Origin: Nitrospinota bacterium
GTDB taxonomy: Bacteria > Nitrospinota > Nitrospinia > JACRGO01
Direction: 5' to 3'
NCBI GenBank assembly: GCA_016212295.1
Contig: JACRGO010000163.1
Location: 1 to 13,723, forward strand
Length of the DNA: 13,723 bases
Translations under genes and position numbers: made by a program
Part shown: positions 660 to 13,723 of the stretch, piece by piece
How positions within the stretch are numbered: position 1 is the first letter of the stretch
Layout: every line of letters begins with the position of its first letter
Notes under the pieces: model-generated
Databases searched by the model: none
Told to the model about the DNA's origin: nothing
What the model saw: only the letters and a program-made list of their open reading frames with translations

Positions 660-2453
660 CTATTTCTTCAACTCTTCAACATACAGCTTCATTACTTCGG
701 ATTTTTCAAATTCCGGATCGAGTTCCCTGGCCTCTTGAATCACGTTTTTATTTTTCTGCAAGGACTCCCTGATATGTTGTATCGCCTTGTCACGATGCCC
801 AAGCAGAAGGGAACACTCCGCGATGTTAAGTAATTGCAGGTCCGCTTCGCTCTTGTCCACCTCCGCCAGCCAGGCATAGAGGTCATGGGCCTTCTGGAAT
901 TCTCCCTTTCCTTTATGATTTCTTGCCTCCTTGCCCACTGTTCTGAAAGCTGTCATTTCATCATTGCTTGCCGCTTTTTTATAAATCTCCGTTGCCGGGC
1001 CGCCTTTCTTTTCCAATACCAGGCGAGCGGCCTCCAGGGCTAATTTACCGGCCTCCCCGGTTTTTCTCTTGATCTCTTCCTGGGATATCTCAGGCTTGAG
1101 TTTCCCGGACAACTCTTCCTTGTACTTTTCCTTATACGCGGAGGCCACTTTCACCAGGGAATTAAAGGACATGCTTTCCTTCAGCGCCTTTTCCGCCTGG
1201 GGGTCGGCTGCAGCGATTTGTTTTGCCTCTTCCTCGAAAATGGAAACCGAAATGGCCATCTTTTTCTCGTTTTCCGCGCATTCTTCCTTGTCCAGGTGCT
1301 TTGCGATGTTATGGCATTCCTGCATTTGCTCCGAGGCCCTATCAAAAAATTGCCCTGCTTCCTTGTAGTCGCCTTTTTTCAGCGCATCCGTTCCCTGTCC
1401 CATCTGGCATTCCCCCATCAGGCGATGCGGACTGGGAGCTTCCTTCTTGATTTTTTTCGCGCTGGAGATGTTTTTTTGAGCGGAAATATATTTTTTTTGC
1501 TGGAGCTGGCCCTTGCCCAAATCAAGGTATGTATCGAAAAGCGATTTTTTCTGGGCGTCCCCTTTTCCCGCTGTTTCAAGAAGATCGATGGCCTTTTGAA
1601 GGACTTTTTCCATTCCCTGGTAATCCTCTTTTTCTCTCAGCCGTATCGCTTCATCCTTCAGTTCCAGGTACTTCTTGAAAGTATCAGCCGACTCCACAAT
1701 GCCTGCCCTGCTTTGGGAAACGGCCTTCCTCTTTTCCTTGTCTTTTAAAAAGATTTTTAAATCATTAAGAAGCCTTTGTTTAATCTGGTCAGATTTCTTC
1801 ACCAGGGCCGATTGGCCGGCGAATTGATTCACAATGGCGGCCACGTCCTCGCCCGTTACGCTTCCCCCGGCCAGTTTCTTCCGGGCGGCCTCTTTTCCGA
1901 CTTGCAGGTATTGATTATATTGCTGAACATCCTTGGCGGATGGCTCCAGTTCCTTTTCATAGTAAGTGGAAAAGGATATTCCCATTTCGCCGAACAGGTT
2001 GGAGCAAGATAGTAGATCGCTCGTGTCTAAATCACCGAAATCGACATGTACCTTTTCATTGTTTTCAATCTGGTAAATAAAATCCGCGCCCTTGACATAA
2101 TGGTTTATTATGAAGGCTTCCATGAAATTGTCGATTTCATTGCTGGAAAAACTGATGCCCTCCTGAGCCCATTTCATCTTGTTTTTCAGGATTTCCTTGG
2201 ATAATGGATCAAGCGCATTGCGGTATTCGTGGTTGTCATGGCAATTAAGAACAATGACCCTGTCTCTCTCGGCGGAATCCTTTCTTTTGAGGTTCTTCTT
2301 TAATTGTCCTATCAGCACGCCGATGATTTCATCGGCGTTGCCTGCTTTCGCCTGCTCCACACTGGAGGAGAGCCCCTTGAGAATCCAGGAAATGGCCAGG
2401 CAAGCCGCCGCATTCGTGCTTACAACCAGAAAGGTTTGTTCGTTTTTGTCCAT
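660..2453 (-). CDS. TPR-repeat protein of unknown function
   Basis: A 597-residue soluble-looking protein with no signal peptide or membrane segment. The N-terminal ~190 residues form a separate region that I do not recognise. It starts MDKNEQTFLVVSTNAAACLAI and includes a His/Asp/Cys-containing stretch, VLNCHDNHEY (68-77). From about residue 255 onward the sequence is helical, rich in Lys and Glu, with alternating helix pairs typical of tetratricopeptide repeats, for example around 264-292, 305-335, 350-385 and 515-565. The C-terminal repeat (NIAECSLLLGHRDKAIQHI) is the clearest, and the protein ends with the ELDPEFEKSEVMKLYVEELK pattern often seen at the end of TPR arrays. Such arrays act as protein-protein scaffolds. 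The ATG at 2453 is preferred over an upstream TTG at 2486, whose codons run into a repeat; no Shine-Dalgarno sequence is visible. It lies 120 bases downstream of hypX on the same strand, so co-transcription is possible, but a hydrogenase role is not supported by sequence. Confidence 0.7.
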   Translation of the reverse strand: MDKNEQTFLVVSTNAAACLAISWILKGLSSSVEQAKAGNADEIIGVLIGQLKKNLKRKDSAERDRVIVLNCHDNHEYRNALDPLSKEILKNKMKWAQEGISFSSNEIDNFMEAFIINHYVKGADFIYQIENNEKVHVDFGDLDTSDLLSCSNLFGEMGISFSTYYEKELEPSAKDVQQYNQYLQVGKEAARKKLAGGSVTGEDVAAIVNQFAGQSALVKKSDQIKQRLLNDLKIFLKDKEKRKAVSQSRAGIVESADTFKKYLELKDEAIRLREKEDYQGMEKVLQKAIDLLETAGKGDAQKKSLFDTYLDLGKGQLQQKKYISAQKNISSAKKIKKEAPSPHRLMGECQMGQGTDALKKGDYKEAGQFFDRASEQMQECHNIAKHLDKEECAENEKKMAISVSIFEEEAKQIAAADPQAEKALKESMSFNSLVKVASAYKEKYKEELSGKLKPEISQEEIKRKTGEAGKLALEAARLVLEKKGGPATEIYKKAASNDEMTAFRTVGKEARNHKGKGEFQKAHDLYAWLAEVDKSEADLQLLNIAECSLLLGHRDKAIQHIRESLQKNKNVIQEARELDPEFEKSEVMKLYVEELKK

Positions 2454-2486
2454 AGCGCGACGTGGCCGCAGCCAAAGGGGAAACAA

Positions 2487-2523
2487 AATTACAAATTACA
2501 AATTACAAATAAATTACAATTAC
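2487..2523. repeat. Short tandem aattac repeat upstream of TPR gene
   Basis: The word aattac occurs five times (2487, 2494, 2501, 2512, 2518), the first three with an exact 7-base period. The array sits just 5' of the TPR gene and directly in the hypX-TPR gap. A related piece, aattacaaataaa, recurs at about 4304-4316 just upstream of the hypX start. So the same repeat word precedes two consecutive minus-strand genes. The rest of the gap (2524-2573) is AT-rich with no other feature. Confidence 0.7.
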
Positions 2524-2573
2524 TGAATGCCAAAAACAATTCCATTCCCTTTTCCTTTGTTTGTTCTTTGTTA

Positions 2574-4286
2574 TTAAGGCGCCCTTCTTATGCGCCGGTG
2601 CTTCGCAAGGTGCGGAGGCGTGCGGGAGTGCGGGACCTTATAAACAAAATTGTGCCGCGCCACGTGGTAACTGGGATCGAACCCAAAAAAATTAAGCCGC
2701 ATGCGCTCCATCTCGGCGGCCCTGTAGGACTCCAGGGGCCTCAGTTTCTCGTCTTCCTCTCGCCGCCGCTTTTTTTCCAGGAGCATTTTTTCCAGATCAG
2801 GACCATTGGCAAGCTCCTCCGCGATTTGCTCCACCCTGGCCCTGAAATCCGGGACGTCCTTTCCAAAACAATCGTCGATCAATCCCATCTCCTTAGCCTC
2901 GGGCGCGCCCACAGGCAAGCGCTTTTCAGTGAGTTCCCCGGCTCTCTTCTCTCCCACCCGCCTGGGCAGGAGATAGGTCCAGTACTCGGATCCGTAAAGG
3001 TTCCCCATCTGCTTATAGTGGGGATTCAGGACCACGCCTTCGCGGGCGTAGACCTTGTCCGGGGCCAGGGCAAGGAAGACCCCGCCTCCGCCGGAATTCC
3101 CCTGCATTGCGGAAATAGTCAAGCGGCCCTCGGTTTCGATTACGGCGCGGGCGAGATCGTTCATGGCGTTGATGTTGCGCCACGATTCCTCGGCGGGACT
3201 CTCCGCCGCCTCGATTAAATTAAGATGTATGCCGTTGCTCCAGAAATCGGGTCCGCCCATAAGGACAATGGCCTTGGCGCCGCGCTCAATGGCGCGGCGG
3301 TAGACCACAAGCAGCCTGGCGCATTGCTCAACTCCCATTGCCCCGTTGTGGAACTCGAAGTGCAGATAGCCCACGCCGTTTTTTTCCTCGTAATAAATCT
3401 CACGGTAGGTTTTGCGGTCCAGGGGAGAGAACGGGTCCAGCGGACACTCAGGCACGTCGTTAATTTTCTCTTTCAGGAGCATGGCCGCCGGCAATTTGAA
3501 AGTCCTTTCCCCGTCCACCCTCCTTTTTAAATGGGTGATCCACACGGCCCCGTCCACAGTGGCGCGGCAGACGGCCCCGTGGCGCCTGGCGATGATCTCC
3601 CCTGCCTTCCCCTTCAGGACGCCTTCCTCAACGCCATTGAAGATAAAGAATTCCTCTCCGAAAATTTTGTCCAGCGCGCCTGGAAAGCCGTCGCCCGCGC
3701 GGATTTTTTTAAGCGCCACCACCGTTGAATCCGTCTCCCAATTAATGGCGCGTTCCTCCTGCTTCACTAATGGACGCCATTTTCCACGGACGCCCTCGCT
3801 GGATATGTCCAGCGGCTCCGGTCTGAAGTCTCTGCTTTCAAATCGCTGGATGGTTTGAAGAAGGGCCTCAACCGATGCCTCCGCGACCTCGCGGCGGTAA
3901 AGACCGCTCTTGCATGCCGGGCGCATTTTGAAATTCACCGCGGCCCATACATCACCGGCATCCATCTCGCCATTGGCCCGCAGGACCGTTACCCCCCATT
4001 CCTCCTCCCCGTCCATAATGGCCCGGTCAAGGGCGGAGGGTCCCCTGTCCCCCTTGGGCCCAGGATGAATGACCATGCACGGATGGTTTTTCCAGATATT
4101 CTCCGGTATGGCCCGCCGCAGGTAGGGGGCGATTATCATATCCGGCTGGAACAACTCCACGGCCTCCGTGGCCACGGAGTCGTTGATGTCGAACTCAACT
4201 GAGACCTCGTGTCCGCGCCGCGTAAGCTCCACGTAAAGGCGCTGGCTGAGGCTGTTAAAGGAGTGTGTGAGGAACAGGATTCGCAT
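2574..4286 (-). CDS. hypX: HypX/HoxX, CO-forming [NiFe]-hydrogenase maturation enzyme
   Basis: A 570-residue two-domain protein. The N-terminal ~280 residues are a formyltetrahydrofolate hydrolase/transferase fold, and the C-terminal part is an enoyl-CoA hydratase/crotonase fold. This order defines HypX (HoxX), which takes the formyl group of N10-formyl-THF, passes it to coenzyme A, and releases CO for the Fe(CN)2CO centre of [NiFe]-hydrogenase. Visible motifs are VIHPGPKGDRGPSALD (72-87) with the catalytic-type His74, MDAGDVWA (108-115) with the conserved Asp109, GGPDFWSNGIHLNLIE (344-359), the glycine-rich GNSGGGGVFLALAPD (396-410), and NPHYKQMGNLYGSEYW (421-436) with the tyrosines expected in the CoA/CO-release site. 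The typical C-terminal signature NFFGFDPSYHVARHNFVYK ends near residue 550; the last 20 residues (Arg/Pro/His-rich) look like an added tail. The start matches the family MRILFLTHSFNSL; no Shine-Dalgarno sequence is visible. It lies downstream of hypD on the same strand. HypX is classically linked to hydrogenases that must mature in the presence of oxygen. Confidence 0.93.
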   Translation of the reverse strand: MRILFLTHSFNSLSQRLYVELTRRGHEVSVEFDINDSVATEAVELFQPDMIIAPYLRRAIPENIWKNHPCMVIHPGPKGDRGPSALDRAIMDGEEEWGVTVLRANGEMDAGDVWAAVNFKMRPACKSGLYRREVAEASVEALLQTIQRFESRDFRPEPLDISSEGVRGKWRPLVKQEERAINWETDSTVVALKKIRAGDGFPGALDKIFGEEFFIFNGVEEGVLKGKAGEIIARRHGAVCRATVDGAVWITHLKRRVDGERTFKLPAAMLLKEKINDVPECPLDPFSPLDRKTYREIYYEEKNGVGYLHFEFHNGAMGVEQCARLLVVYRRAIERGAKAIVLMGGPDFWSNGIHLNLIEAAESPAEESWRNINAMNDLARAVIETEGRLTISAMQGNSGGGGVFLALAPDKVYAREGVVLNPHYKQMGNLYGSEYWTYLLPRRVGEKRAGELTEKRLPVGAPEAKEMGLIDDCFGKDVPDFRARVEQIAEELANGPDLEKMLLEKKRRREEDEKLRPLESYRAAEMERMRLNFFGFDPSYHVARHNFVYKVPHSRTPPHLAKHRRIRRAP

Positions 4287-4339
4287 TTATAAATTGGGGA
4301 TGAAATTACAAATAAAGTAACACTAAAAAAGGCTATCTG

Positions 4340-4453
4340 AACCACGAATTAGCACGAATTTTATAAAACTACTCTTTCCATTTCAAACTCTGAGTGCTGG
4401 TAGACTTCTTACTTTAAAAATAATTCGTGTTCATTAGTGTCCATTCGTGGTTC
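4340..4453. repeat. Inverted repeat of the ccacgaat/attcgtgg type in hypD-hypX gap
   Basis: The left arm (about 4340-4362, gaaccacgaattagcacgaa) is complementary to the right arm (about 4418-4453, containing attcgtgttc and attcgtggttc), with an extra copy of the word in the right arm. About 55 bases separate the arms. The word pattern (ccacgaat, acacgaat, in tandem and inverted) is the type seen as a dispersed intergenic repeat in many environmental bacterial genomes. It carries no ORF and is not a typical terminator, as no T-run follows either arm. Confidence 0.75.
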
Positions 4454-4500
4454 CTTCTTTTCTAAAACAGACTTTTTCAATGGGAGCGAGAAAAGAATGT

Positions 4501-4562
4501 CTCACACAAAGCCACTAAGCCACAAAGATTTTTTCTTTGTGATCTTTGTGCCTTCGTGTGAG
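4501..4562. repeat. Long hairpin immediately downstream of hypD
   Basis: The left arm ctcacacaaagccac... (4501-4530) pairs with the right arm ...ctttgtgccttcgtgtgag (4531-4562) with a few mismatches. Together they make a stem of nearly 30 bases with almost no loop. The cacaaag/ctttgtg word recurs several times within each arm. It begins 3 bases beyond the hypD stop codon, so it would be the 3' hairpin of the hypD transcript. It may stop RNA decay or attenuate transcription into hypX, but the T-tract of an intrinsic terminator is missing. I consider it a dispersed intergenic repeat first and a regulatory element second. Confidence 0.75.
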
Positions 4563-4565
4563 TGC

Positions 4566-5687
4566 CTATCTCCCGTGTCTTCTAAAGGTATAATACGCGG
4601 CGCAGGCGCCCTCGGAGGAGACCATGCAGGAGCCGACCGGGTTCTCCGGCGCGCAAACTGTCCCGAAGAGTTTGCAGTCAAACGGCCGCTTGATCCCGCG
4701 CAGCACTGCCCCGCATTCGCATCCCTTGCGCTCCTCGGTCTTGACGGACGGAATGGAGAACCTGCGCTCCGCGTCGAATTCAGCGTATTCTTTTTTTATC
4801 CTGAGTCCGCTGTAAGGGACCTGTCCAAGACCGCGCCATTCAAAAACCTTCCGCAGCTCAAAGACCTCCGCCACCAGTTCCTGGGCCTTCCTGTTCCCCT
4901 CCTTCGTCACCACCCGCGTGTATTGGTTCTCCACCTCGGCGCGGCGCTCGTTCAATTGTCTTATCAGCATAAGAACGGCCTGCATTATGTCCAGGGGCTC
5001 GAATCCGGCGATCACCACTGGCCGCTGGTACTCCTCAGCGAAGTATTCGTAAGGACGGCTCCCGATCACAGCGCTCACGTGGGCGGGTCCGATAAAGCCG
5101 TCCAGGGGGACCGTTCCAAATTCGCGGACGTGTGGAGATTCCAGTATATTCTGGATCGCGGCAGGGGTGAGGACGTGGTTGCAAAAGGCCGAGAAATTCT
5201 TGAGGCCGGACTTCCTGGCCTGCTGGATGGCCATGGCCGTCGGGGGCGTGGTGGTCTCGAATCCTATGGCGAAGAAGACCACTTCGCGGCCCGGATTTTC
5301 CCGCGCGATTTTCAGGGAGTCCATGCAGGAATAAACCATCCGCGCGTCCGCCCCCTGTGACTTGGCCTTGAGCAGGCTGGTCCCGTTGGAACCCGGGACG
5401 CGCAGCATGTCGCCGTAACTGCACAAAATCACTTCGGGAATGCGGGCCAGGGCCGTTGCATGGTCTATCCTGGAGATGGGCAGTACGCACACCGGGCAGC
5501 CTGGACCGTGGACCATTCGCACGTTTTCAGGCAGAAGGTCAGTGATCCCGTGCCGGAATATGGCGTGGGTATGCCCTCCGCAAAACTCCATGAGGTTGTA
5601 GGTCCTGGAGGGAAGGGCCTCGGCGTTGATCATGGCGGCCACGGCCTGTACGCGTTCCCTGCCGCGAAATTCCTCGACGTATTTCAT
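4566..5687 (-). CDS. hypD: HypD, [NiFe]-hydrogenase Fe(CN)2CO assembly scaffold
   Basis: A 373-residue protein of normal length for HypD, the cytoplasmic iron-sulfur protein that together with HypC holds iron while cyanide (from HypE/HypF) and CO are attached. Visible signatures are EFCGGHTHAIFRHG with Cys36, GPGCPVCVLP with Cys64 and Cys67, the IGFETTTPPTAMAI segment (141-154), and GFIGPAHVSAVIG (197-209). A Cys-rich C-terminus (Cys323, 325, 338, 345, 354, 362) supplies the [4Fe-4S] ligands. All expected cysteines appear present, so the protein should be active. The ATG at 5687 gives the family start MKYVEEFRG. The frame stays open to 5846, but those extra 53 residues run through a repeat fragment and match nothing in HypD. 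No Shine-Dalgarno sequence precedes 5687. It is followed on the same strand by hypX, 279 bases away. The other partners (hypA, B, C, E, F) and hydrogenase subunits are not in the window. Confidence 0.96.
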   Translation of the reverse strand: MKYVEEFRGRERVQAVAAMINAEALPSRTYNLMEFCGGHTHAIFRHGITDLLPENVRMVHGPGCPVCVLPISRIDHATALARIPEVILCSYGDMLRVPGSNGTSLLKAKSQGADARMVYSCMDSLKIARENPGREVVFFAIGFETTTPPTAMAIQQARKSGLKNFSAFCNHVLTPAAIQNILESPHVREFGTVPLDGFIGPAHVSAVIGSRPYEYFAEEYQRPVVIAGFEPLDIMQAVLMLIRQLNERRAEVENQYTRVVTKEGNRKAQELVAEVFELRKVFEWRGLGQVPYSGLRIKKEYAEFDAERRFSIPSVKTEERKGCECGAVLRGIKRPFDCKLFGTVCAPENPVGSCMVSSEGACAAYYTFRRHGR

Positions 5688-6037
5688 TATTATATAGTCA
5701 AAACTTTTTAAACCACAGATTACACAGCGCGGCATGGCCGCAATTAAAATAAATTTCGATGTATTCAAACGTTCGACGCTATTATGATGATACTTTTCTT
5801 GGCGTTTCCGGTCCAGTAAAACTTTTTCGCGGCAAGTAACTTTCAAAAGCGCTTTTTTTATTTTATAATTATTATTCCCCGGCTAATCTTTAACAACTAT
5901 CCTGGCAAAGGCAACGCTGTATCCGCATAATTTCATCATCTTTTTTGCAAGCGCTTCCCTGCGGCTGAATTTGCAATTCCACCCTTTTATATATCGGGAT
6001 TTCAAGGTTTTTCTTTATAAAACAAAGGGATTGCAGT
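5688..6037. other. Divergent intergenic region between hypD and the REC-PAS gene
   Basis: This is the first part of the 545-base gap between the divergent genes and must contain the hypD promoter. I can point to only one element, a repeat fragment at 5711-5741. It consists of aaccacagattacacag (5711-5727), a known-looking dispersed repeat word, joined to the small palindrome gcggc-atg-gccgc (5729-5741). A similar sequence, gcgcgacgtggccgca, lies just upstream of the TPR gene start (about 2456-2471). No gene, RNA family or clear promoter box is recognised in the rest. Confidence 0.45.
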
Positions 6038-6163
6038 GCGAGTGACTAAAGTGAGTTGAAGTTTAAAGCGCCTAAAGTTGTGGAAATTATTTTTTCTACT
6101 ATACAAAAAGAAACCTACCACAACTTCAGGCGCTTTAGTTCACTTGACACTTTAGTCACTCAG
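6038..6163. repeat. Long imperfect inverted repeat (46-base arms)
   Basis: The left arm 6038-6083 (starts gcgagtgactaaagtg, ends gcctaaagttgtgg) is complementary to the right arm 6118-6163 (starts ccacaacttcaggcgc, ends cactttagtcactcag) with roughly ten mismatches or indels. A 34-base AT-rich centre lies between them. The words actaaag and gcctaaag recur within the arms. A T-run follows the right arm (6165-6170), which would look like a terminator on the plus strand, yet no plus-strand gene lies upstream. It resembles a miniature inverted-repeat or dispersed palindromic element inserted between divergent genes. I see no transposase and no sure target-site duplication. Confidence 0.8.
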
Positions 6164-6232
6164 GTTTTTTGGGAATCACCTATTTTCATTAATCAATTTG
6201 CGAAGCTATGTTCTTAATTTTGAGGTGAAATA

Positions 6233-8101
6233 ATGAAAAAAGTCCTTTTAATCGAAGACGATGAAACAATCACCGATGCCCTGAATTTTACCCTGGGGGA
6301 GGAAGGTTATGAGGTCCTCTGCGCCATGGACGGCGAAGCCGGACTCGAAAAGGCCCGCTCGGAAAAGCCGGACGTCATTCTTCTTGACATAATGCTTCCG
6401 AAAATGAACGGATTCGAGGTCTGCCAGGCGTTGAAATCAGACGAGAAGTTCAAATCCATCCCCATTATCATGATAACGGGGCTGGGGGATACGGATAATA
6501 CCGTCAAGGGGCTTTCACTGGGGGCCGATGACTATGTTTCCAAGCCCTTTGATTTCAAGGAACTCCTGGCCCGGCTGAAATCACATTTGAGGATGAAGGA
6601 GCTATACGACATCGTCAAGACCGAGGAGGAAGAGAAAAGCGCCCTGCTGGACGTCTCCCAGTCCCTGGCCTCCACCATGAACCCCCACGAGACCCTCTAC
6701 ACCATAGTCTCCAAGATCGCGGAGGTCATAGAGGTCAAGCGCTGCTCCATTATTTATGTGGATTCCGGCAACAGGAAGGGATATGTCATGGCCTCCCACG
6801 ATTCAAAAATCATCAAGCACCTTAAGGTGGATATAGAAAAATACCCGGAAATCCTGCAAGTCATGCGAACCGGGCAGCCGGTTGTCATCAATGACGTGTA
6901 CACGGACCCGATCCTCTTTTCCGTCCGCGACACGCTGAGCCTTATAGACATAAAATCCATCATGGCCTTTCCTATCAGCTTCAAGGACACCCTGATCGGG
7001 ACCCTTATCCTCCGCACCTCCCGCAGGGAAGCCGCTTTCAATGAGCGGGAAATCAGGTTTTGCGAGGTCATATCCCACTTGGCGGCCTCTCCCCTGAAAA
7101 ACGCCTATCTTTTCGAGATACTCCACATGGAAAAGGAGAAGGAACGAAACGGACGTCTGGAGGCGGAGGACGCCCTTCAAAGGAGCGAGGAGAAATTCCG
7201 CGTCCTGTACGAGAATATCCCGGTGCCTTACCAGTCCCTGGATGAAAGCGGACGCTTCATCGAGGTCAACGCCGCCTTCCTGAAAAAACTGGGATGCTCC
7301 CGCGAGGAGATCATCGGCGCATGGGCCGGCGATTTGGCCGCTCCCTATCATGTGGACCGGTTTACGGAAAATTTTCTCCATTTCAAGGAAACAGGGGAAA
7401 TAAACGATGTAGAGGTGGATATAAAAAAGAAGGACGGCTCCATCATCACCGTGTCCTACACCGGCCGTATAGGTTATGACCAGCAGGGCAAATTCAAGCA
7501 GACCCACTGCGTGTGGGAGGACGTAACCGAGCGGAAACAGGCCGATGAAAAATTGAAAAAGGCATTGGCGGAATGGGACAATACCTTTAATTCCATCTCG
7601 GATTTCGTCTCCATACACGACACGGAATTCAGGATCGTCAAGGCGAACAAGGCCCTTCTTGATTTTTTAAAAAAGAGGCCGGAAGAGGTTATCGGGAAAC
7701 ACTGCTACGAAATTTTTCATGAAAAAAACGAACCCTGGGACACCTGTCCCCATGCGCAGACCATGGAAACCAACCAATCCAAAACGGAAGTGGTGAACGA
7801 TCCCCATATCGGCGTTCCCCTCCTGGTGACCACGTGCCCCATCTTTGACCTTGAAGGAAAATTCACCGGCTCTGTCCATATCGCCAAGGACATCACGGAA
7901 GCCAAAAAGGCGGAGGAGAAATTAAAGGAGGCATTCAGGGAATTGGAGGAAAAAACCGAACGCCTGGAAAAATTTAATAAGCTGACCGTGGGACGGGAAA
8001 TGGATATGGTCCGGTTGAAGCGGGAAGTAAACGCGCTTTTGAGGGAATCTGGAAAGCCGGAAAGGTATGAGGAGGCGGAGAAGATAAAGAATGGTCAATA
8101 A
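6233..8101 (+). CDS. Response-regulator/GAF/PAS/PAS sensor without kinase domain
   Basis: A 622-residue cytoplasmic signalling protein. Residues 1-120 are a complete receiver domain: acidic pocket Glu8/Asp9/Asp10, phospho-acceptor Asp52 in LLDIMLP, Thr82 and Lys104 in SKPF. Residues ~137-295 form a GAF domain (KRCSIIYVD, PVVINDV, MAFPISFKDTLIGTLIL). PAS 1 spans ~316-437 and PAS 2 ~443-560, each closing with the usual D(V/I)TE motif. PAS 2 carries a cysteine pair, KHCYEIF and WDTCPHAQT (Cys491, Cys505). After PAS 2 come a short coiled coil and a conserved tail (VGREMDMVRLKREVNALL, 587-604). There is no HisKA, HATPase, GGDEF, EAL or DNA-binding domain, so it must act through a partner. A Shine-Dalgarno sequence, gaggtg (6222-6227), lies 5 bases before the ATG, which fixes the start. 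The last residues and the stop codon lie inside a downstream repeat. It is likely phosphorylated by an unlinked kinase. Confidence 0.9.
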   Translation: MKKVLLIEDDETITDALNFTLGEEGYEVLCAMDGEAGLEKARSEKPDVILLDIMLPKMNGFEVCQALKSDEKFKSIPIIMITGLGDTDNTVKGLSLGADDYVSKPFDFKELLARLKSHLRMKELYDIVKTEEEEKSALLDVSQSLASTMNPHETLYTIVSKIAEVIEVKRCSIIYVDSGNRKGYVMASHDSKIIKHLKVDIEKYPEILQVMRTGQPVVINDVYTDPILFSVRDTLSLIDIKSIMAFPISFKDTLIGTLILRTSRREAAFNEREIRFCEVISHLAASPLKNAYLFEILHMEKEKERNGRLEAEDALQRSEEKFRVLYENIPVPYQSLDESGRFIEVNAAFLKKLGCSREEIIGAWAGDLAAPYHVDRFTENFLHFKETGEINDVEVDIKKKDGSIITVSYTGRIGYDQQGKFKQTHCVWEDVTERKQADEKLKKALAEWDNTFNSISDFVSIHDTEFRIVKANKALLDFLKKRPEEVIGKHCYEIFHEKNEPWDTCPHAQTMETNQSKTEVVNDPHIGVPLLVTTCPIFDLEGKFTGSVHIAKDITEAKKAEEKLKEAFRELEEKTERLEKFNKLTVGREMDMVRLKREVNALLRESGKPERYEEAEKIKNGQ

Positions 8102-8204
8102 GTCATTTGGCTTCGCCGTCATTGGGTCATTAAGTCATTGGTAAAGGAACAGGGGGAAATTGACTAATGACTCACTGACCCAATGACAAATGACTATTGA
8201 CCCA
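8084..8204. repeat. aatgac/gtcatt repeat block forming a long hairpin
   Basis: The left arm (about 8092-8145: ggtcaataagtcattt ... gggtcattaagtcattgg) is complementary to the right arm (about 8159-8204: attgactaatgactcactg ... aatgactattgaccc), with one 10-base insertion (ggcttcgccg) in the left arm. The loop contains ggaacaggggg. The block begins inside the preceding gene and supplies its stop codon. A T-run (8211-8216) follows the hairpin, so it may end transcription from the plus strand between two convergent genes. The same element, rearranged, recurs at 10395-10558, including a 23-base stretch present there in inverted orientation. Confidence 0.85.
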
Positions 8205-8214
8205 AGACTGTTTT

Positions 8215-8631
8215 TTAATTCCCCATCATTTTCAAGACAGCAATCGTGATGGAGGTTTGCGCGATCATGAGGCCGATGACCCATTTGATGAGACGTATTT
8301 CCATTTCCTTCATGTCGACTTCCAACTTTTTAATGGAGCCATTCAACGCTGCTTCAGTGTCTTTAATGCGTGCGGCCGAATCCGCCTCAACCTTGGTTAT
8401 GGCCATGGTCAGTCCGGTTTCCGTTTTATTCATTGACGAGATTAGACTGGCCTCCATTCGTTTCATGGAGGCGTTCAACTCGGCGGTCTGCAACTTGAGG
8501 GCTGTGTCCAGTTGTTCCCTTGTGATATGCTGTTTTTCCGCCTCGAATTCCTCCAAGGCCCTGACGATGGATTTCGCCTGTGGTTCGGGGAAAGTTTTGG
8601 AGAGGGTTTCAAGAATGGACATGGTCTGCAT
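8215..8631 (-). CDS. Small coiled-coil protein with C-terminal membrane anchor
   Basis: A 138-residue protein. The N-terminus, ILETLSKTFPEPQAKSIVRA (6-25), resembles the start of DUF1640/CCDC90-type coiled-coil proteins, in which a short helix with a PE-QA motif precedes a long coiled coil. Residues ~35-112 are a continuous heptad-like helix (Lys/Glu/Met/Ala-rich). Residues ~114-134 (LIKWVIGLMIAQTSITIAVL) form one membrane helix very near the C-terminus, so the protein is probably tail-anchored with the coiled coil in the cytoplasm. Prokaryotic members are often found near toxin-antitoxin or mobile loci but have no settled function. The first ATG (8631) is used; Met4 (8622) is equally possible, and the only Shine-Dalgarno-like ggag is rather far upstream. 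It converges with the REC-PAS gene and is divergent from phd. Family assignment is by pattern only. Confidence 0.7.
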   Translation of the reverse strand: MQTMSILETLSKTFPEPQAKSIVRALEEFEAEKQHITREQLDTALKLQTAELNASMKRMEASLISSMNKTETGLTMAITKVEADSAARIKDTEAALNGSIKKLEVDMKEMEIRLIKWVIGLMIAQTSITIAVLKMMGN

Positions 8632-8678
8632 GAGAAAATGCTAACTCCGTGGGAGAAGGGATGTCAAGAGGGACAGAA

Positions 8679-8716
8679 TTGACGATTGAAGGATTGAAAA
8701 CCAAGTCAATCGTCAA
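8679..8716. repeat. Inverted repeat attgacgatt type upstream of phd
   Basis: ttgacgattga (8679-8689) is the exact reverse complement of tcaatcgtcaa (8706-8716), with a 16-base spacer. The word attgacgatt also begins the hairpin region at 12531. It lies in the divergent gap (8632-8792) between the coiled-coil gene and phd, upstream of the phd promoter. It could be a repeat fragment or a regulatory site; position alone does not decide. Confidence 0.6.
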
Positions 8717-8730
8717 GTGTCAATAGCGCC

Positions 8731-8759
8731 TTGACATTGCCCCGGAATTTGTCCATATT
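8731..8759 (+). promoter_or_regulatory. Sigma-70-type promoter for phd-vapC
   Basis: A perfect -35 box ttgaca (8731-8736) is separated by 17 bases from a -10-like catatt (8754-8759, 4 of 6 consensus bases). The phd start codon lies 33 bases further on. Overlapping the -10 is an interrupted palindrome, tcca-tat-tgga (8752-8762 region). That is where a Phd-type autorepressor operator would be expected, although the arms are short. Confidence 0.55.
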
Positions 8760-8792
8760 GGATTCAAACTTAGACAAAAAGGAGATTTTGCC

Positions 8793-9050
8793 ATGGATTG
8801 GAAAATCGGCGAGGCAAAACAAAAGTTTTCCGAGGTCGTCCATGCCGCCCAAAAGGGGCCGCAAATTATCTATAACAGAAAAAAAATGGTGGCCATCGTC
8901 CTGGATTCGGAAAATTATAAGGATTTTCTTCGATTCAAGAAGTCCAAGAACGCCGTCGCCTCGGAATTTGAGAAATTGCGCGAATTATGCGCGGAGGAAG
9001 GATATCAGTTGAAAACGCCCCGGCGCAAAAACAGGAAGGCAAGGCTTTAA
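8793..9050 (+). CDS. Phd/YefM-family antitoxin
   Basis: An 85-residue antitoxin. Phd/YefM proteins dimerise through an N-terminal fold, bind their own promoter, and wrap a C-terminal tail around the toxin. The family pattern is clear: MDWKIGEAKQKFSEVVHAAQ (helix 1), then KGPQIIYNRKKMVAIVLDSE (strands, 21-40), then YKDFL. The C-terminal half is charged and disordered-looking (Lys/Arg-rich end), as expected for a toxin-binding tail. A strong Shine-Dalgarno sequence, aaggag (8779-8784), is placed 8 bases before the ATG. The next gene starts one base after this stop codon, the usual toxin-antitoxin spacing, but that toxin is frameshifted. The antitoxin itself looks intact and probably still represses its promoter. 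Confidence 0.88.
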   Translation: MDWKIGEAKQKFSEVVHAAQKGPQIIYNRKKMVAIVLDSENYKDFLRFKKSKNAVASEFEKLRELCAEEGYQLKTPRRKNRKARL

Positions 9051-9051
9051 C

Positions 9052-9455
9052 ATGAAATACCTTTGCGACACCAACATCATCAGCGAGCTGGCCGGTAAAA
9101 GACCCGATCCAGGAGGCTGGCTTGGGCGGAAGGTGTTTCTTCTTTCGCCATGAGCGTGGTTTCCGTGGAAGAAATTTATTACGGGCTTTCCTGGAAGCCA
9201 AATCACAGGATTTTAAGCTGGTTTGAATCTTTTTTGAAAGGCCACGTTGAGGTTTTAACCATAACGCACGCGATAGCCAAACGATCGGGTTCTCTCAGAG
9301 GAGAACTGCAGGCACAGGGGAAGCCTCGTATGCAAGCGGATATTCTCATCGCGGCCACGGCAAGGGAACACAGATTGACCCTGGTAACCAGAAATGAACG
9401 GGATTTTGAAGGCTGCGGCGTGGCTGTATTGAATCCATTTCTGAAAAAACGATAA
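9052..9455 (+). pseudogene. VapC-type PIN-domain toxin with a frameshift
   Basis: VapC toxins are PIN-domain ribonucleases controlled by a paired antitoxin. The first frame starts with the canonical MKYLCDTNIISELAGKRPDP, carrying the first catalytic Asp6, then ends at a stop (9151-9153). The rest continues in another frame: from about 9114 it reads RLAWAEGVSSFAMSVVSVEE, with the second acidic residue, then MQADILIAATA and VTRNERDFEG near the end with the remaining catalytic acids, to the stop at 9453-9455. Joining the frames near 9110-9113 restores a complete VapC of about 134 residues, so a single-base loss (or 2-base gain) explains the break. All catalytic residues are retained across the two frames, and the gene starts one base after phd, which suggests recent inactivation. 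A sequencing or assembly error, or programmed frameshifting, is possible. The internal ATG at 9150 gives a truncated product lacking Asp6. Confidence 0.85.
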
Positions 9456-9458
9456 AAA

Positions 9459-9548
9459 ACTTCGCGGACTTCGCGGATAAAAAATAAAAATATCTTGGCC
9501 GCGAACGTAAATTAAAAACCCGAAATCAAAAACCCGAAAGCCAAAATT
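9459..9548. repeat. Cluster of short direct and inverted repeats before the MEDS gene
   Basis: Two repeat types fill the gap. First, the 9-base unit ttcgcgga(c/t) is repeated directly at 9461-9469 and 9470-9478, with its inverse ccgcgaa at 9499-9505. Second, aaaaacccgaaa occurs twice with a 14-base period (9514-9525 and 9528-9539). The second type ends 10 bases before the ATG of the MEDS gene, and no Shine-Dalgarno sequence is left between them. Confidence 0.75.
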
Positions 9549-9549
9549 T

Positions 9550-10386
9550 ATGAAAAAACCAGCCATGCATGGCCTTTCTCTCGTGGAAGCGATTGAAAGG
9601 CTGGAAATTCATGACCACCTCTGCCTGATTTACGAGGGGCGTGAAGAGCAATTCGCCGCCATTGTTCCCTTTTTCAAGGCGGGGCTTGCCAGAAGGGAAA
9701 AGTGCGTCTACATCGCGGATGAAAATACTTCACAAGGGGTTTTGGATACCCTGCGGAGGGAAATTATGGATGTGGACTCCGCCCTGGCCTCCGGCGCGCT
9801 GAGCGTTATCACCAAACGGGACGCCTATCTCAAGCAGGGTTATTTCGAGCCGGACTCCATGATACGGCTTTTAAAGGAGACTGTGGAATCGGCGAAAGAA
9901 CAGGGATTCAGCGGACTCAGAGTGACCGGGGAAATGACCTGGGCCTTGGGAGACGAGCCGGGCGTGGAAGGGCTGGTGGAATACGAAGCTAAATTGAACT
10001 ACTTTTTGCCGCAAAACGACATCCTGGTCATTTGCCAGTACAGCGCAAAACGGTTTTCTCCTGAAATCCTGATTGACATTATCCGGACCCATCCCATCGT
10101 CATTTACGGAAACACGGTCTGCGAGAATTTCTACTATGTGCCCCCGGATGAATTCCTGGTTGCGAATCAGCCGGGCGTTGAGGCCAGGAGGCTGCTGAAA
10201 AATATTCTTGACCGGGAGCAAGCGGAAGTTGAATTGAGAAAGGCATACGACGAGTTGCGGGACAAGGCCGATCGCCTCGAACTGTTCCATGAGGTCACGG
10301 TTGGCCGTGAACTGGAAATGGTCCGTTTAAAGAAAGAGGTCAACGCCCTTCTGGCGGAATTGGGAAGGCCGGGGAAATATGAGTAG
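9550..10386 (+). CDS. MEDS-domain sensor protein with shared C-terminal tail
   Basis: A 278-residue soluble protein. Residues ~15-205 match the MEDS domain (methanogen/methylotroph DcmR sensory domain), a RecA-like/ligand-sensing fold first noted in DcmR, the dichloromethane dehalogenase repressor, and in methanogen proteins. Diagnostic features are HDHLCLIYEGREEQF (21-35), KCVYIADENT (51-60), LRVTGEMTWAL (123-133), ICQYSAKRFSPEIL (161-174) and HPIVIYGNTVCENFYYVPP (181-199). From ~220 there is a coiled coil, then the tail VGRELEMVRLKKEVNALL (251-268), nearly identical to that of the REC-GAF-PAS protein. No DNA-binding or kinase domain is present, unlike DcmR itself. The start at 9550 has no Shine-Dalgarno sequence and directly follows repeats; Met6 is an alternative. 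A hydrophobic or one-carbon ligand is a plausible input by family analogy, but the real signal is unknown. Confidence 0.88.
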   Translation: MKKPAMHGLSLVEAIERLEIHDHLCLIYEGREEQFAAIVPFFKAGLARREKCVYIADENTSQGVLDTLRREIMDVDSALASGALSVITKRDAYLKQGYFEPDSMIRLLKETVESAKEQGFSGLRVTGEMTWALGDEPGVEGLVEYEAKLNYFLPQNDILVICQYSAKRFSPEILIDIIRTHPIVIYGNTVCENFYYVPPDEFLVANQPGVEARRLLKNILDREQAEVELRKAYDELRDKADRLELFHEVTVGRELEMVRLKKEVNALLAELGRPGKYE

Positions 10387-10394
10387 GGGAAAAA

Positions 10395-10558
10395 ATAAAG
10401 AATGGTCAATAGTCAATAAGTCATTGGTAAGGGAACAGGGGGGCAGGGAAAAATTGACTAAGACTATTCTTATATGACCATTGACCTAATGACACAATGA
10501 CGGCGAAGCCAAATGACTCAATGACTAATGACTTACTTACTGACCCAATGACTAATTT
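10395..10558. repeat. Second aatgac/gtcatt repeat block
   Basis: It begins 9 bases after the MEDS stop and runs to within 4 bases of the next ATG. Its first part, ataaagaatggtcaata (10395-10411), equals the start of the block at 8084. The part taagtcattggtaa-ggaacaggggg (about 10417-10441) also matches. The arm 10401-10430 pairs with 10452-10482. The rest (10483-10556) contains six spaced copies of aatgac, and 10495-10517 is the exact inverse of 8102-8124. So this is the same element as 8084-8204 in rearranged form. Confidence 0.85.
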
Positions 10559-10561
10559 CCC

Positions 10562-12526
10562 ATGAAATTTTCCACCAAACTCAATCTCCTTCTCCTGTCC
10601 GTTGCCCTCCTCCTTTCCGGGGCGGCCTTCTACGTGATCCACGCCTTCACCCTTGAGGCAATGGAAACCCAAATCACGGGCCACATTGAAGACATGGCCG
10701 CCCATACCATGGACGAGATCGATAAATTGCTGTTCGAGCGGCAGGGCGATATTCAGATTCTTGCCGGAGACTCCATCATCCGGTCCGGGGACTCCACCCC
10801 GGAGGATATCACGAAAAGGCTGATCGAATTTCGCAACTACTACAAAACCTATGTCTCCCTTTCCTTTTTTAACCGGGACAGGATACGGATCGCGGACACA
10901 TCCGGCATTCACATAGGGGAACAGCACCATTCGTGTCAGTGGTCCGAGGACGCCATTGATAACGGCATTGTGAGCGCGGCAAGGGACGTCCGGATGGCGG
11001 AGGACCAGAAAATCCCATGCGTTTACTTCGCCGCCCCGGTCCGGGACAAAACAGGGAAAACCCTTGGGGCGGTGGTGTCCAGAATGCCGATGGAAAAATT
11101 GCGCGGCATTATCAGCGAAAGTTTCAGCCCATACACGAAAATGCGCGTCAAGGTGGATTTGGTGGACAGGGAGGGCATGCTCCTCTATTCCAACCACAAC
11201 GAAAAAGGGATTTTAAAGGAAAAACCGTGGGACAGCATGGAGGCATGGGACTCCTTTAAATCGGGGACAAAAAAATCGGGTAGCATCAGGCATTCCCACT
11301 CTGGCGAGGGGGAATATTTAGGCGTCTTCGCCATGGAACAGGGGTATTTGGACTTCGCCGGAAACGGCTGGACCCTTATGTTCCATATCCCAACCGAGGA
11401 TGTCTTCGCGCCCGTCCTGCGATTGAAGGAAAAGGCGTTGACTCTCCTGTCGCTCATCACGGGCGCGTCGATTTTGCTTATTCTGTTTTTCTCAAGGGCT
11501 GTTTCCATTTCACTTATAAGGCTTAAGGACGCGGCGCTCAGGGTCGGCGGGGGAGACCTGGACGCCAGGATCAATGTCAAATCCGGGGATGAGATCGGCC
11601 AATTGGCCGCTGCCTTTAACCGGATGGCCGGGGATCTGAAAAGGTCGTGGGAGACTTTAAAACGAACCCAGTTCGTTGTCGACCACACCTCCGACGCTTT
11701 TTTCATTATTGGCGCCGATGCGCGCTTTCTGAGCGTGAATAACGCCGCTTGCGAAATGCACGGCTATTCCAGCGATGAGCTGCTGTCCATGTCCGTCCAC
11801 GATCTCAGCCCGGATTTTCCCCCGGCGCGGTGGGCCAAGAATTGGGAAGAGATCAAGGCGCGGCGTTCTTTCTCCTTTGAGACAAGGGGCAGGACCAAGG
11901 ACGGCAAAATTATCTTTGTGGAGGTCATGCAGAATTATATCGAGGACCAGGGAAGGGAATACCTCTATGTCTTTGTGCGCGATATTGCAGAGCGGAAAAA
12001 AATGGAAGGGCAAAATAAAATGATCCTGGAAAGGACCATCGACGGATTTTGGGTCCTGGACCTTCATGGCCGCGTCCTGGAGGTCAACGACTCCTATTGC
12101 GGGATGAGCGGTTACAGCCGCGAGGAATTGCTGTCCATGCGGATTCCCGATATAGAGGCGTCGGAAACCCCGGCAGAGATCGCGGAGCACATCAAAAAGG
12201 TCCTGAAAGAGGGAGGGGATTTCTTTGAAACCAAACACAGGCGCAAGGACGGTAAAATCATCGATGTGGAAATAAGCGCCAATTTCATGGATATTGAAGG
12301 AGGCAGGCTCTTTTCCTTTGTCCGGGACGTCACGGAAAGAAAGCGGACCGTGGCGTTGCTGGCAAGCGAGACGGAAAGGCTGGCCAAATCCAACGCCGAA
12401 CTGGAAAGATTCAATAGCCTGGCTGTGGGGCGGGAGATTAAAATGATTGAACTCAAACGCGAGATCAATGATTTGCTGAAAGAACTGGGACGGGGGGAAA
12501 AGTACACCATTCACAAACCGGAGTGA
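10562..12526 (+). CDS. Membrane sensor: Cache-like, HAMP, PAS, PAS, no kinase
   Basis: A 654-residue inner-membrane receptor. Residues ~7-29 are the first membrane helix (LNLLLLSVALLLSGAAFYVI). Residues ~30-288 form the periplasmic sensor, which looks like a double Cache domain (YVSLSFFNRDRIRIADTSG, VYFAAPVRDKTGKTLGAVV, VDLVDREGMLLYS, GWTLMFHIP). The second membrane helix is ~291-316, followed by HAMP ~311-363 (GGGDLDARINVKSGDEIGQL). PAS 1 is ~366-480 and PAS 2 ~483-594, each with a DI/DV-(A/T)ERK ending. A coiled coil and the tail VGREIKMIELKREINDLL (622-639) close the protein. There is no histidine kinase, methyl-accepting or cyclase domain. Cache domains usually bind small organic ligands, so a ligand outside the cytoplasm is likely. 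No Shine-Dalgarno sequence is visible before 10562, where a repeat block ends. The corrinoid gene follows after 61 bases; a shared transcript is possible. Confidence 0.9.
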   Translation: MKFSTKLNLLLLSVALLLSGAAFYVIHAFTLEAMETQITGHIEDMAAHTMDEIDKLLFERQGDIQILAGDSIIRSGDSTPEDITKRLIEFRNYYKTYVSLSFFNRDRIRIADTSGIHIGEQHHSCQWSEDAIDNGIVSAARDVRMAEDQKIPCVYFAAPVRDKTGKTLGAVVSRMPMEKLRGIISESFSPYTKMRVKVDLVDREGMLLYSNHNEKGILKEKPWDSMEAWDSFKSGTKKSGSIRHSHSGEGEYLGVFAMEQGYLDFAGNGWTLMFHIPTEDVFAPVLRLKEKALTLLSLITGASILLILFFSRAVSISLIRLKDAALRVGGGDLDARINVKSGDEIGQLAAAFNRMAGDLKRSWETLKRTQFVVDHTSDAFFIIGADARFLSVNNAACEMHGYSSDELLSMSVHDLSPDFPPARWAKNWEEIKARRSFSFETRGRTKDGKIIFVEVMQNYIEDQGREYLYVFVRDIAERKKMEGQNKMILERTIDGFWVLDLHGRVLEVNDSYCGMSGYSREELLSMRIPDIEASETPAEIAEHIKKVLKEGGDFFETKHRRKDGKIIDVEISANFMDIEGGRLFSFVRDVTERKRTVALLASETERLAKSNAELERFNSLAVGREIKMIELKREINDLLKELGRGEKYTIHKPE

Positions 12527-12535
12527 GATAATTGA

Positions 12536-12576
12536 CGATTTTCGATTGACAATTGAAAATTGTCAATTGAAAATCG
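12536..12576. repeat. Near-perfect hairpin before the corrinoid-protein gene
   Basis: The left arm 12536-12554 (cgattttcgattgacaatt) pairs with the right arm 12558-12576 (aattgtcaattgaaaatcg) over 19 positions with one G-T mismatch and a 3-base loop. It ends 11 bases before the ATG at 12588, in the place where a ribosome-binding site should be, and no Shine-Dalgarno sequence is present. No T-run follows, so it is not a normal terminator. It shares the word attgacgatt with 8678-8687. Confidence 0.85.
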
Positions 12577-12587
12577 TAAATGACAAA

Positions 12588-13259
12588 ATGACCCAAAACG
12601 ACTCCATATACATTCAGAGCCTGAAGGCCGCTTTTGATGAATTTGACAGCGCGAAAGCGATGGCGCTGGCGGAGCAATATGTTCATACGGAATCCGAGCC
12701 GTATCGCTTCCTGACTCACATAATGAAAGAGGCCGTCAACTTGGTGGAAGGAAATTGGCAAGGGAGGCTTGTCAGCCTGACCGAGGTTTATAGATTGGGC
12801 AAGGCCATCGAAAGTTCTGGAAATTGTGTTCTGGAATTCATGAAGGAAGCCTTCTATGATGATTTGGACTTTAATAATGAACGCGTTCGTATCCTTATAA
12901 CCACATTCAATGACTGGCACGAATTCGGGAAGATCATTATCAGCACTTTCCTGAAATTTGAAGGATATGCCGTTGAAGATATCGGGATGACTCCGTCCAT
13001 CTGCGCCTTGGTTGACGCGGTAGTTGAAAAAAAACCTGACATCCTGGCTATCTCTGTCTTAATGGTCAATTCCGCTCTTATGCTGGCGAATCTGAGGAAG
13101 CGGCTTGACGAAAATGGCTGCGGAAATGTCAAGGTAATAGCCGGCGGCGCTCCGTTTTACTTTGACCCGACTCTTGCGGCAAGGTTTAAATTTGACGGGT
13201 ATGCCTCGACGCCTTTTGAAGCCTTGAACTTGGTGAAAAAAATCATGGAGAGAAAATGA
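12588..13259 (+). CDS. Corrinoid (cobamide)-binding methyltransferase protein, MtaC-like
   Basis: A 223-residue protein with the two-part layout of MtaC/MtbC/MttC-type corrinoid proteins. A helical N-terminal cap (~1-90) is followed by a Rossmann-like B12-binding domain (~98-222). The cobalamin signature is intact: DWHEFG (Asp109, His111, Gly114) gives DxHxxG with the cobalt-ligating His, SVL at 156-158 lies 41 residues later, and GG at 186-187 after a further 27, exactly the family spacing. Such proteins carry a methyl group on cobalt between a substrate:corrinoid methyltransferase and a second methyltransferase acting on CoM or tetrahydrofolate. The segment around His (TTFNDWHEFGK) departs from the commoner EGDxHDIGK, marking a divergent subgroup. 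The ATG at 12588 is chosen; an in-frame TTG at 12546 lies inside the hairpin. The stop overlaps the next gene by 4 bases (atga), indicating translational coupling. Confidence 0.88.
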   Translation: MTQNDSIYIQSLKAAFDEFDSAKAMALAEQYVHTESEPYRFLTHIMKEAVNLVEGNWQGRLVSLTEVYRLGKAIESSGNCVLEFMKEAFYDDLDFNNERVRILITTFNDWHEFGKIIISTFLKFEGYAVEDIGMTPSICALVDAVVEKKPDILAISVLMVNSALMLANLRKRLDENGCGNVKVIAGGAPFYFDPTLAARFKFDGYASTPFEALNLVKKIMERK

Positions 13260-13723
13260 ATTCTTACGAAAGAGTCATGACAGCCCTAAGCCACAAACAA
13301 CCGGACCGCGTGCCGTTTTTTTTGTGCTTTACCTTTTATGGGGCAAAAGAGCTGGGAATGGACATCAGGAAATATTTTTCAAAGGCAGAGCATGTGGTGG
13401 AAGGGCAAAAAAGGCTCCTCGACAAGTTCGGCCATGATTGCCTGTATCCCTTTTTCCATGCCGCGCTCGAGGCCCATGCCTTTGGCCAGGATATTGAATT
13501 TTACGAGGACGGCCCCCCTAACGCCGGCAGGCCGGTGATCCGCGGCAGAAAGGATATCTTTGAACTGAAGACGCCGGATCCAGCGGACAATGAAAAGCTT
13601 TTGGAGGCCGTTAAAGCGGTGGAGCTTTTATCCAGGGAGTTCAGGAAAAAAACGCCCGTTATATCCGCTGTCATAGGCCCATATTCCTTGCCTGTCATGC
13701 TGATGGGATTGAACAAATGGCTG
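13256..13723 (+). CDS. UroD/MtaA-family methylcobamide methyltransferase, partial at window end
   Basis: The first 156 residues of a protein of the uroporphyrinogen decarboxylase/MtaA superfamily; the frame is open to the last base. It begins MNSYERVMTALSHKQPDRVP, the typical start of UroD-like methyltransferases (RVxxALxxxxPDRVP). It continues with FGHDCLYPFFHAALEAHAFG and, near the edge, VISAVIGPYSLPVMLMG, which matches the family's (V/I)xGPFTLAxxLxG segment. In organisms that use corrinoid proteins, these zinc enzymes move the methyl group from the corrinoid protein to coenzyme M or another acceptor; the zinc-binding His/Cys region would lie beyond the window. Overlap with the corrinoid gene (atga) and a ggag Shine-Dalgarno sequence at 13247-13250 show they are one operon. 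True heme-pathway UroD is unlikely given this context. Which methyl acceptor it uses cannot be told from this part. Confidence 0.88.
   Translation, partial: MNSYERVMTALSHKQPDRVPFFLCFTFYGAKELGMDIRKYFSKAEHVVEGQKRLLDKFGHDCLYPFFHAALEAHAFGQDIEFYEDGPPNAGRPVIRGRKDIFELKTPDPADNEKLLEAVKAVELLSREFRKKTPVISAVIGPYSLPVMLMGLNKWL

Follow-up and report, generated by a model that had tools for sequence, protein, structure and literature searches.

We describe here a conserved C-terminal tail on sensors with unrelated input domains, and a second helix, M2, on histidine kinases encoded beside the genes of such sensors. Three sensors with a tail, P1, P2 and P3, are encoded in the complete contig C118 of assembly GCA_016212295.1, from a Nitrospinota bacterium; this contig, of 13,723 nt, is hereafter called the window. 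The tail and M2 are motifs new to Pfam and NCBIfam. Based on conservation, location and genomic pairing, it is probable that the proteins with a tail are stand-alone sensor subunits, which act in trans on a histidine kinase via a coiled-coil contact between the tail and M2. The sensors and their tail segments are located as follows.

6233..8101, + strand: P1, REC-GAF-PAS-PAS sensor with C-terminal tail (Pfam; tail profile A5)
7943..8074, + strand: tail segment of P1 (profile A5, E 6.9e-20)
9550..10386, + strand: P2, MEDS sensor with C-terminal tail (Pfam MEDS, E 1.8e-54)
10255..10383, + strand: tail segment of P2 (profile A5, E 2.2e-19)
10562..12526, + strand: P3, Cache-HAMP-PAS-PAS receptor with C-terminal tail (Pfam; dCache_1 under the curated cut-off)
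12380..12514, + strand: tail segment of P3 (profile A5, E 3.7e-23)

The tail of P1, P2 and P3 and its relatives

The three sensors share a segment of about 40 residues, LExFNxLxVGRExxMxxLKxExNxLLxxxGxxxKY, which profile A5 matches where the initial annotation of the window had placed it. The tail of P1 is 60% identical to that of P2 over 50 amino acids (E 7e-21) and to that of P3 over 35 amino acids (E 1e-14). As had also been claimed, the input domains that precede it are unrelated, and a Pfam scan confirmed that P1, P2 and P3 have no kinase, cyclase, MCP-signalling or DNA-binding domain. The structure of a P1 fragment, predicted with AlphaFold2 using a 70-row alignment, contains one unbroken helix of 51 residues (fragment residues 126-176, pLDDT about 94-98). 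This predicted helix, which corresponds to P1 residues 555-605 (7895..8047, + strand), leads from the last strand of the final PAS domain into the tail. The initial annotation had described a coiled coil, the conserved segment, and then a Gly and a Tyr. The model keeps this order and refines it: VGRE is part of the single predicted helix, and the conserved Gly and Tyr come after its end.

Relatives of the tail were collected by scanning one genome per species, and at least 316 were matched. Their consensus is LxxKxxELExFNxLxVGRELKMIELKKEINxLLxxxGxxxKYxI. Across 84 diverse tails the R and the E of VGRE never vary, and at least 90% of them share L8, F11, M22, E24, L25, K26, E28, N30, L32 and G37. 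In 127 of 128 tail copies, from many bacterial and archaeal phyla, the profile match ends at most 30 residues from the C-terminus. Among the best 80 matches, the bacterial sources include Bacteroidota, Verrucomicrobiota, Planctomycetota, Proteobacteria, Cloacimonadota, Ignavibacteria and Acidobacteriota, and the archaeal sources include anaerobic methanotrophic archaea (ANME) and Methanosarcinales, Altiarchaeota and Pacearchaeota. The tail is widespread behind diverse inputs, which on 87 tail proteins are PAS (62), REC (23), GAF (12), HAMP (7) and Cache (6), in addition to PocR, MEDS and others. Any one kinase family matches at most one of these 87 proteins; kinase domains are absent from them or nearly so.

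Two possibilities had been raised against a dedicated segment: a generic coiled coil found at random positions, and a known Pfam transmitter domain truncated here. The invariant R-E pair and the nearly constant C-terminal position argue against the former. Pfam and NCBIfam scans with isolated tails, which gave scattered weak matches and no significant family, argue against the latter. The PDB holds no relative of the tail and none of M2. Plasmid and phage records yielded no tail at E 1e-3, although the low-complexity filter of that search may hide matches. A string search of 5.4 million open-access full-text papers found neither motif in print, and a keyword search of the literature on trans-acting sensors returned general reviews only.

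An S-helix connects two domains within a single protein and carries an ERT signature (Anantharaman, Balaji and Aravind 2006, PMC1592074). The tail resembles it, as both appear to be conserved parallel coiled-coil helices of about 40 residues, with conserved polar core residues, beside domains such as PAS, GAF, MEDS, PocR and HAMP; the 51-residue predicted helix is long enough for the continuous helix of about 40 residues that S-helices form beside sensory domains. However, the tail lies at the end of the protein and not between two signalling domains, and the ERT signature is found in 0 of 84 tails. With these two defining features failing, the assignment as an S-helix was rejected.

The tail could also be described as a degenerate DHp helix, with Arg in place of the H-box His, that would join real kinases in mixed four-helix bundles. 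It shares the transmitter position with the dimeric helices of HisKA/DHp, and by eye 'FxxxxVGREL' looks like 'FxxxxSHEL'. This origin is hardly credible, since the tail has no conserved phospho-acceptor His, the H-box proline is absent, and profile-profile comparison (hhalign) with the HisKA domains of neighbouring kinases gave a probability of 0.5% over 7 columns.

Neighbouring kinases and the M2 helix

The downstream neighbours of tail genes were mapped in 75 cases, with 64 on the same strand. HATPase_c is found in 30 of these 64 genes, HisKA in 28 and CheR in 17. On the upstream side, most neighbours are either single REC proteins or unrelated ones, and only 3 of 44 have HATPase_c. A sensor that lacks a kinase domain and has a kinase gene next to it is the arrangement of a trans-acting sensor/kinase pair. 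The 17 CheR genes could point to another role, that of a CheR-type methylation target or tether, where the glutamates of the helix would be methylated as in chemoreceptors or in the RsbK S-helix of Bacillus cereus; such methylation, of the RsbM type, has been described for a signalling helix (PMC4574943). We consider this role very unlikely because CheR is largely limited to a Bacteroidota-type cassette, and most other loci, including the window, have no adjacent CheR though the tail is equally conserved there.

M2 was found by eye in the neighbouring kinases as a recurring 'ATLNLLEDL' helix. Its consensus is ELxxxxxELxxxxxAxLNxMEDL, in which A19 and N22 are conserved at 90% or more and D26 is invariant. 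On the collected loci, the M2 profile matched 61 open reading frames (ORFs) at E<1e-3 and none in reversed sequences. In kinases, M2 either occupies the linker that precedes a PAS domain or the phospho-acceptor domain, or forms the entire N-terminus. Of 93 non-tail genes directly downstream of a tail gene, 44 have M2, compared with 1 of 44 on the upstream side. In 6 of the 44 pairs the start codon (ATG) of the M2 gene overlaps the stop of the tail gene (distance -3), and in 19 the two are at most 30 bases apart, a spacing consistent with coupled expression. The initial annotation had expected partner kinases to carry the same segment as the sensors. They carry a different helix instead, and homology between the tail and M2 was rejected after a profile comparison (probability 3%).

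Two kinases carry M2 as the sole element before HisKA: at L117 (1079-2101, 341 aa) the N-terminus consists of three tandem 21-residue M2 repeats, and at L170 (841-2445) of five. An otherwise sensor-less kinase beside a kinase-less sensor suggests that M2 is the kinase input. Scans with M2 against Pfam and NCBIfam gave no significant family, the strongest match being TorS (E 1.3e-4 in 2 of 48 M2 rows). Since 19 of the 48 rows have an ERT-like start, M2 may be an elaborated S-helix. Some tail proteins bear M2 themselves (L048, L063 and L110). A locus from Margulisiibacteriota (L050:3-7175) has six tail genes near-tandem, followed by one M2 kinase. At L106, a KaiC-like ATPase (3-926) and a KaiB-like protein (949-1314) precede a PAS tail protein (1491-3497) and a REC-M2 kinase (3620-6889); KaiB was also matched in a second upstream neighbour.

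In one natural fusion, at L112, a single chain combines a tail segment close to the N-terminus with a PocR domain, two M2 helices and HisKA-HATPase-REC-REC-Hpt, in this order. A search for its homologues matched the PocR domain only, so there is no fusion family. As the only protein with an internal segment ahead of a kinase, L112 might suggest that tails are ordinary coiled-coil linkers left when full-length sensor kinases were truncated by gene splitting, with no special function. We give this origin very little credence, because positions invariant across phyla, the C-terminal location and tandem copies, such as the six of L050, are unlike decaying ends.

The probable partner kinase of this genome and pairing in other genomes

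The window ends within a gene, and its last features lead to a kinase on another contig.

12546..13259, + strand: B12-binding corrinoid protein, encoded after P3 and ahead of the kinase (Pfam B12-binding; NCBIfam corrinoid families)
13256..13723, + strand: URO-D family protein, N-terminal part, interrupted by the contig end (Pfam URO-D; C-terminal part on contig C139)
13599..13723, + strand: 125 bp identical to the end of contig C139, an overlap that joins the window to the M2-M2-HisKA_2-HATPase kinase
about 14516-15988 in joined coordinates: M2-M2-HisKA_2-HATPase kinase ORF, about 2 kb past the third tail

The only M2 match in the assembly at E<=1e-5 is this C139 kinase, which has two M2 helices, HisKA_2 and HATPase_c. 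The last 125 bases of the window are identical to the end of C139 in reverse complement; this 125-mer occurs at these two contig ends and nowhere else in the assembly, and the URO-D frame stays open across the join, over 351 codons. The joined order is P1, P2, P3, the corrinoid protein, URO-D, the M2 kinase, a 23S rRNA intervening-sequence-type protein and two hybrid kinases. An M2 kinase was expected after the tail genes, and one is indeed present on the joined contig, in data independent of those behind the expectation. In a congeneric genome (G001), a homologous M2 kinase (42% identity) adjoins the P1 homologue. The predicted structure of the kinase was of low confidence (pLDDT 54) and was not used as evidence.

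Between P1 and P2 there are a Phd/YefM-like antitoxin ORF (8793-9050, + strand) and a short PIN-domain ORF (9150-9455, + strand), whose profile match starts at position 33 only. Beside this pair is an opposite-strand coiled-coil ORF (8215-8631), probably membrane-anchored. This toxin-antitoxin-like pair and the opposite-strand ORF separate P1 from P2 and P3, so the three sensors need not share one transcript. Divergent from the sensors, a HypX-like formyl-transferase/enoyl-CoA hydratase fusion adjoins HypD (2574-4286 and 4566-5846, - strand); both are hydrogenase maturation genes. The corrinoid protein and the URO-D-type methyltransferase (12546-13723, + strand, joined to C139) sit between the MEDS and Cache tail sensors and the M2 kinase, and a methyl-compound regulon is possible.

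To compare whole genomes, the M2 profile A6, built from named loci, was run on two sets of genomes largely independent of the training loci. The first set comprised 291 relatives of the window genome. Tails occur in 24 of these and M2 in 7, and all 7 genomes with M2 bear tails (P 1.1e-8); without G001, which gave one training row, the count is 6 of 6 (P 1.3e-7). The second set consisted of 196 relatives of a Desulfobacteraceae genome and excluded the training genome; of its 15 genomes with M2, 12 bear tails (P 2.3e-9). These P values take no account of kinship among the genomes, nor of the higher chance that a signalling-rich genome contains either motif, and the adjacency of M2 to tails is the stronger argument. 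In the second set, 13 of 20 M2 matches have a same-strand tail within 5 kb. In 30 named genomes the fraction is 35 of 39 within 5 kb, adjacency that is partly by construction as these genomes are partly the source of the profile. Ten of the named genomes have at least 784 HATPase_c domains versus 15 M2 matches, 13 of which have a tail within 5 kb on their own strand. This rarity among HATPase_c proteins, which is not by construction, argues that M2 is not a general kinase feature.

The tail might instead be a homodimerisation cap for PAS or GAF dimers, with the kinase reached in another way, for instance by REC phosphorylation or PAS contacts. It prolongs the PAS-proximal helix and has coiled-coil character, and the REC domains on 23 of 87 tail proteins could be phosphorylated by an adjacent kinase. 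Nevertheless, we regard a cap as unlikely: most tail proteins, P2 and P3 among them, have no REC domain, and a generic cap leaves unexplained the invariance of R-E, the conserved G...Y that follows the helix, the C-terminal position and the co-occurrence with one rare kinase helix.

Proposed coupling and its significance

Coupling of the tail to kinases is strongly supported by the neighbourhood, the co-occurrence, the kinases with M2 as their only input and the one fusion. The initial annotation had proposed that a helix shared at the transmitter position lets several inputs report to a partner kinase. The present data strengthen this proposal and correct the location of the partner, which had been sought elsewhere and is usually encoded by the adjacent gene; in the present genome it lies just beyond the end of the contig. 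In the proposed mechanism, the input domains of one polypeptide (PAS, GAF, REC, MEDS, Cache-HAMP and others) would drive a helix that continues without a break into the terminal VGRE tail. The kinase, a separate polypeptide usually encoded by the next gene, would take the signal through the 'AxLNxMEDL' of M2. The tail and M2 would form a coiled coil or helical bundle that substitutes for the covalent linker of an ordinary sensor kinase and passes the signal from sensor to kinase. Such a replacement would let several sensors share one kinase, and in this genome the three sensors would feed the M2-M2-HisKA_2 kinase downstream of the third. The R-E of the tail may, as a guess, be charge-paired with the N/D of M2. 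Tail proteins that bear M2 would allow relays.

Several observations weigh against this mechanism. Neighbourhood pairing can reflect shared regulation without contact. For about half of the tail genes, the gene that follows lacks M2, and 7 of 20 M2 matches in the second genome set are not within 5 kb of a tail. A Bacteroidota cassette of tail protein, CheR and hybrid kinase without M2 recurs (L105, L058, L082, L054 and others), although the genomes of L058 and L054 have an M2 gene 4-5 kb downstream of the tail. Two more divergent tail copies in the genome of the window, on contig C168, are directly 5' of a HAMP-PAS-PAS-HisKA kinase that has just a weak M2-like 'VLLSILED'. The mirror-tree co-divergence of tail and M2 (r 0.39) is barely above that of tail and DHp (r 0.30), and sequence co-evolution of tail and M2 is only suggestive.

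Stand-alone sensors act on kinases in trans in several known systems, namely H-NOX with its kinase, NosP/NahK, and chemoreceptors with CheA. There, too, input and kinase are on separate polypeptides, often encoded by adjacent genes, and several inputs per kinase are possible. However, the contact in those systems is domain-specific or made via CheW, whereas here a common short tail on many inputs would meet a common kinase helix. In polyketide synthases, docking domains pair the C-terminal helix of one polypeptide with a coiled coil at the N-terminus, or in a linker, of the protein encoded by the following gene; the working principle would be the same by analogy only, with other proteins and other chemistry.

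In a broader version of the tail-M2 contact, to which we incline somewhat less than halfway, the tail and M2 would be a widespread, interchangeable plug-and-socket pair in bacteria and archaea; sensor kinases would become multi-subunit receptors in which many input subunits, each with the plug at its C-terminus, share a kinase with one or more sockets (tandem M2 repeats) in its linker, and tail proteins that bear M2 would form relays. Many PAS, GAF and REC sensors in the databases have no output domain and stay unassigned, and the tail-M2 pair, if true, would assign a kinase partner to such proteins from sequence alone. It would also show unrelated signals converging on one kinase without fusion, and it would offer a short modular coupling element for sensor engineering.

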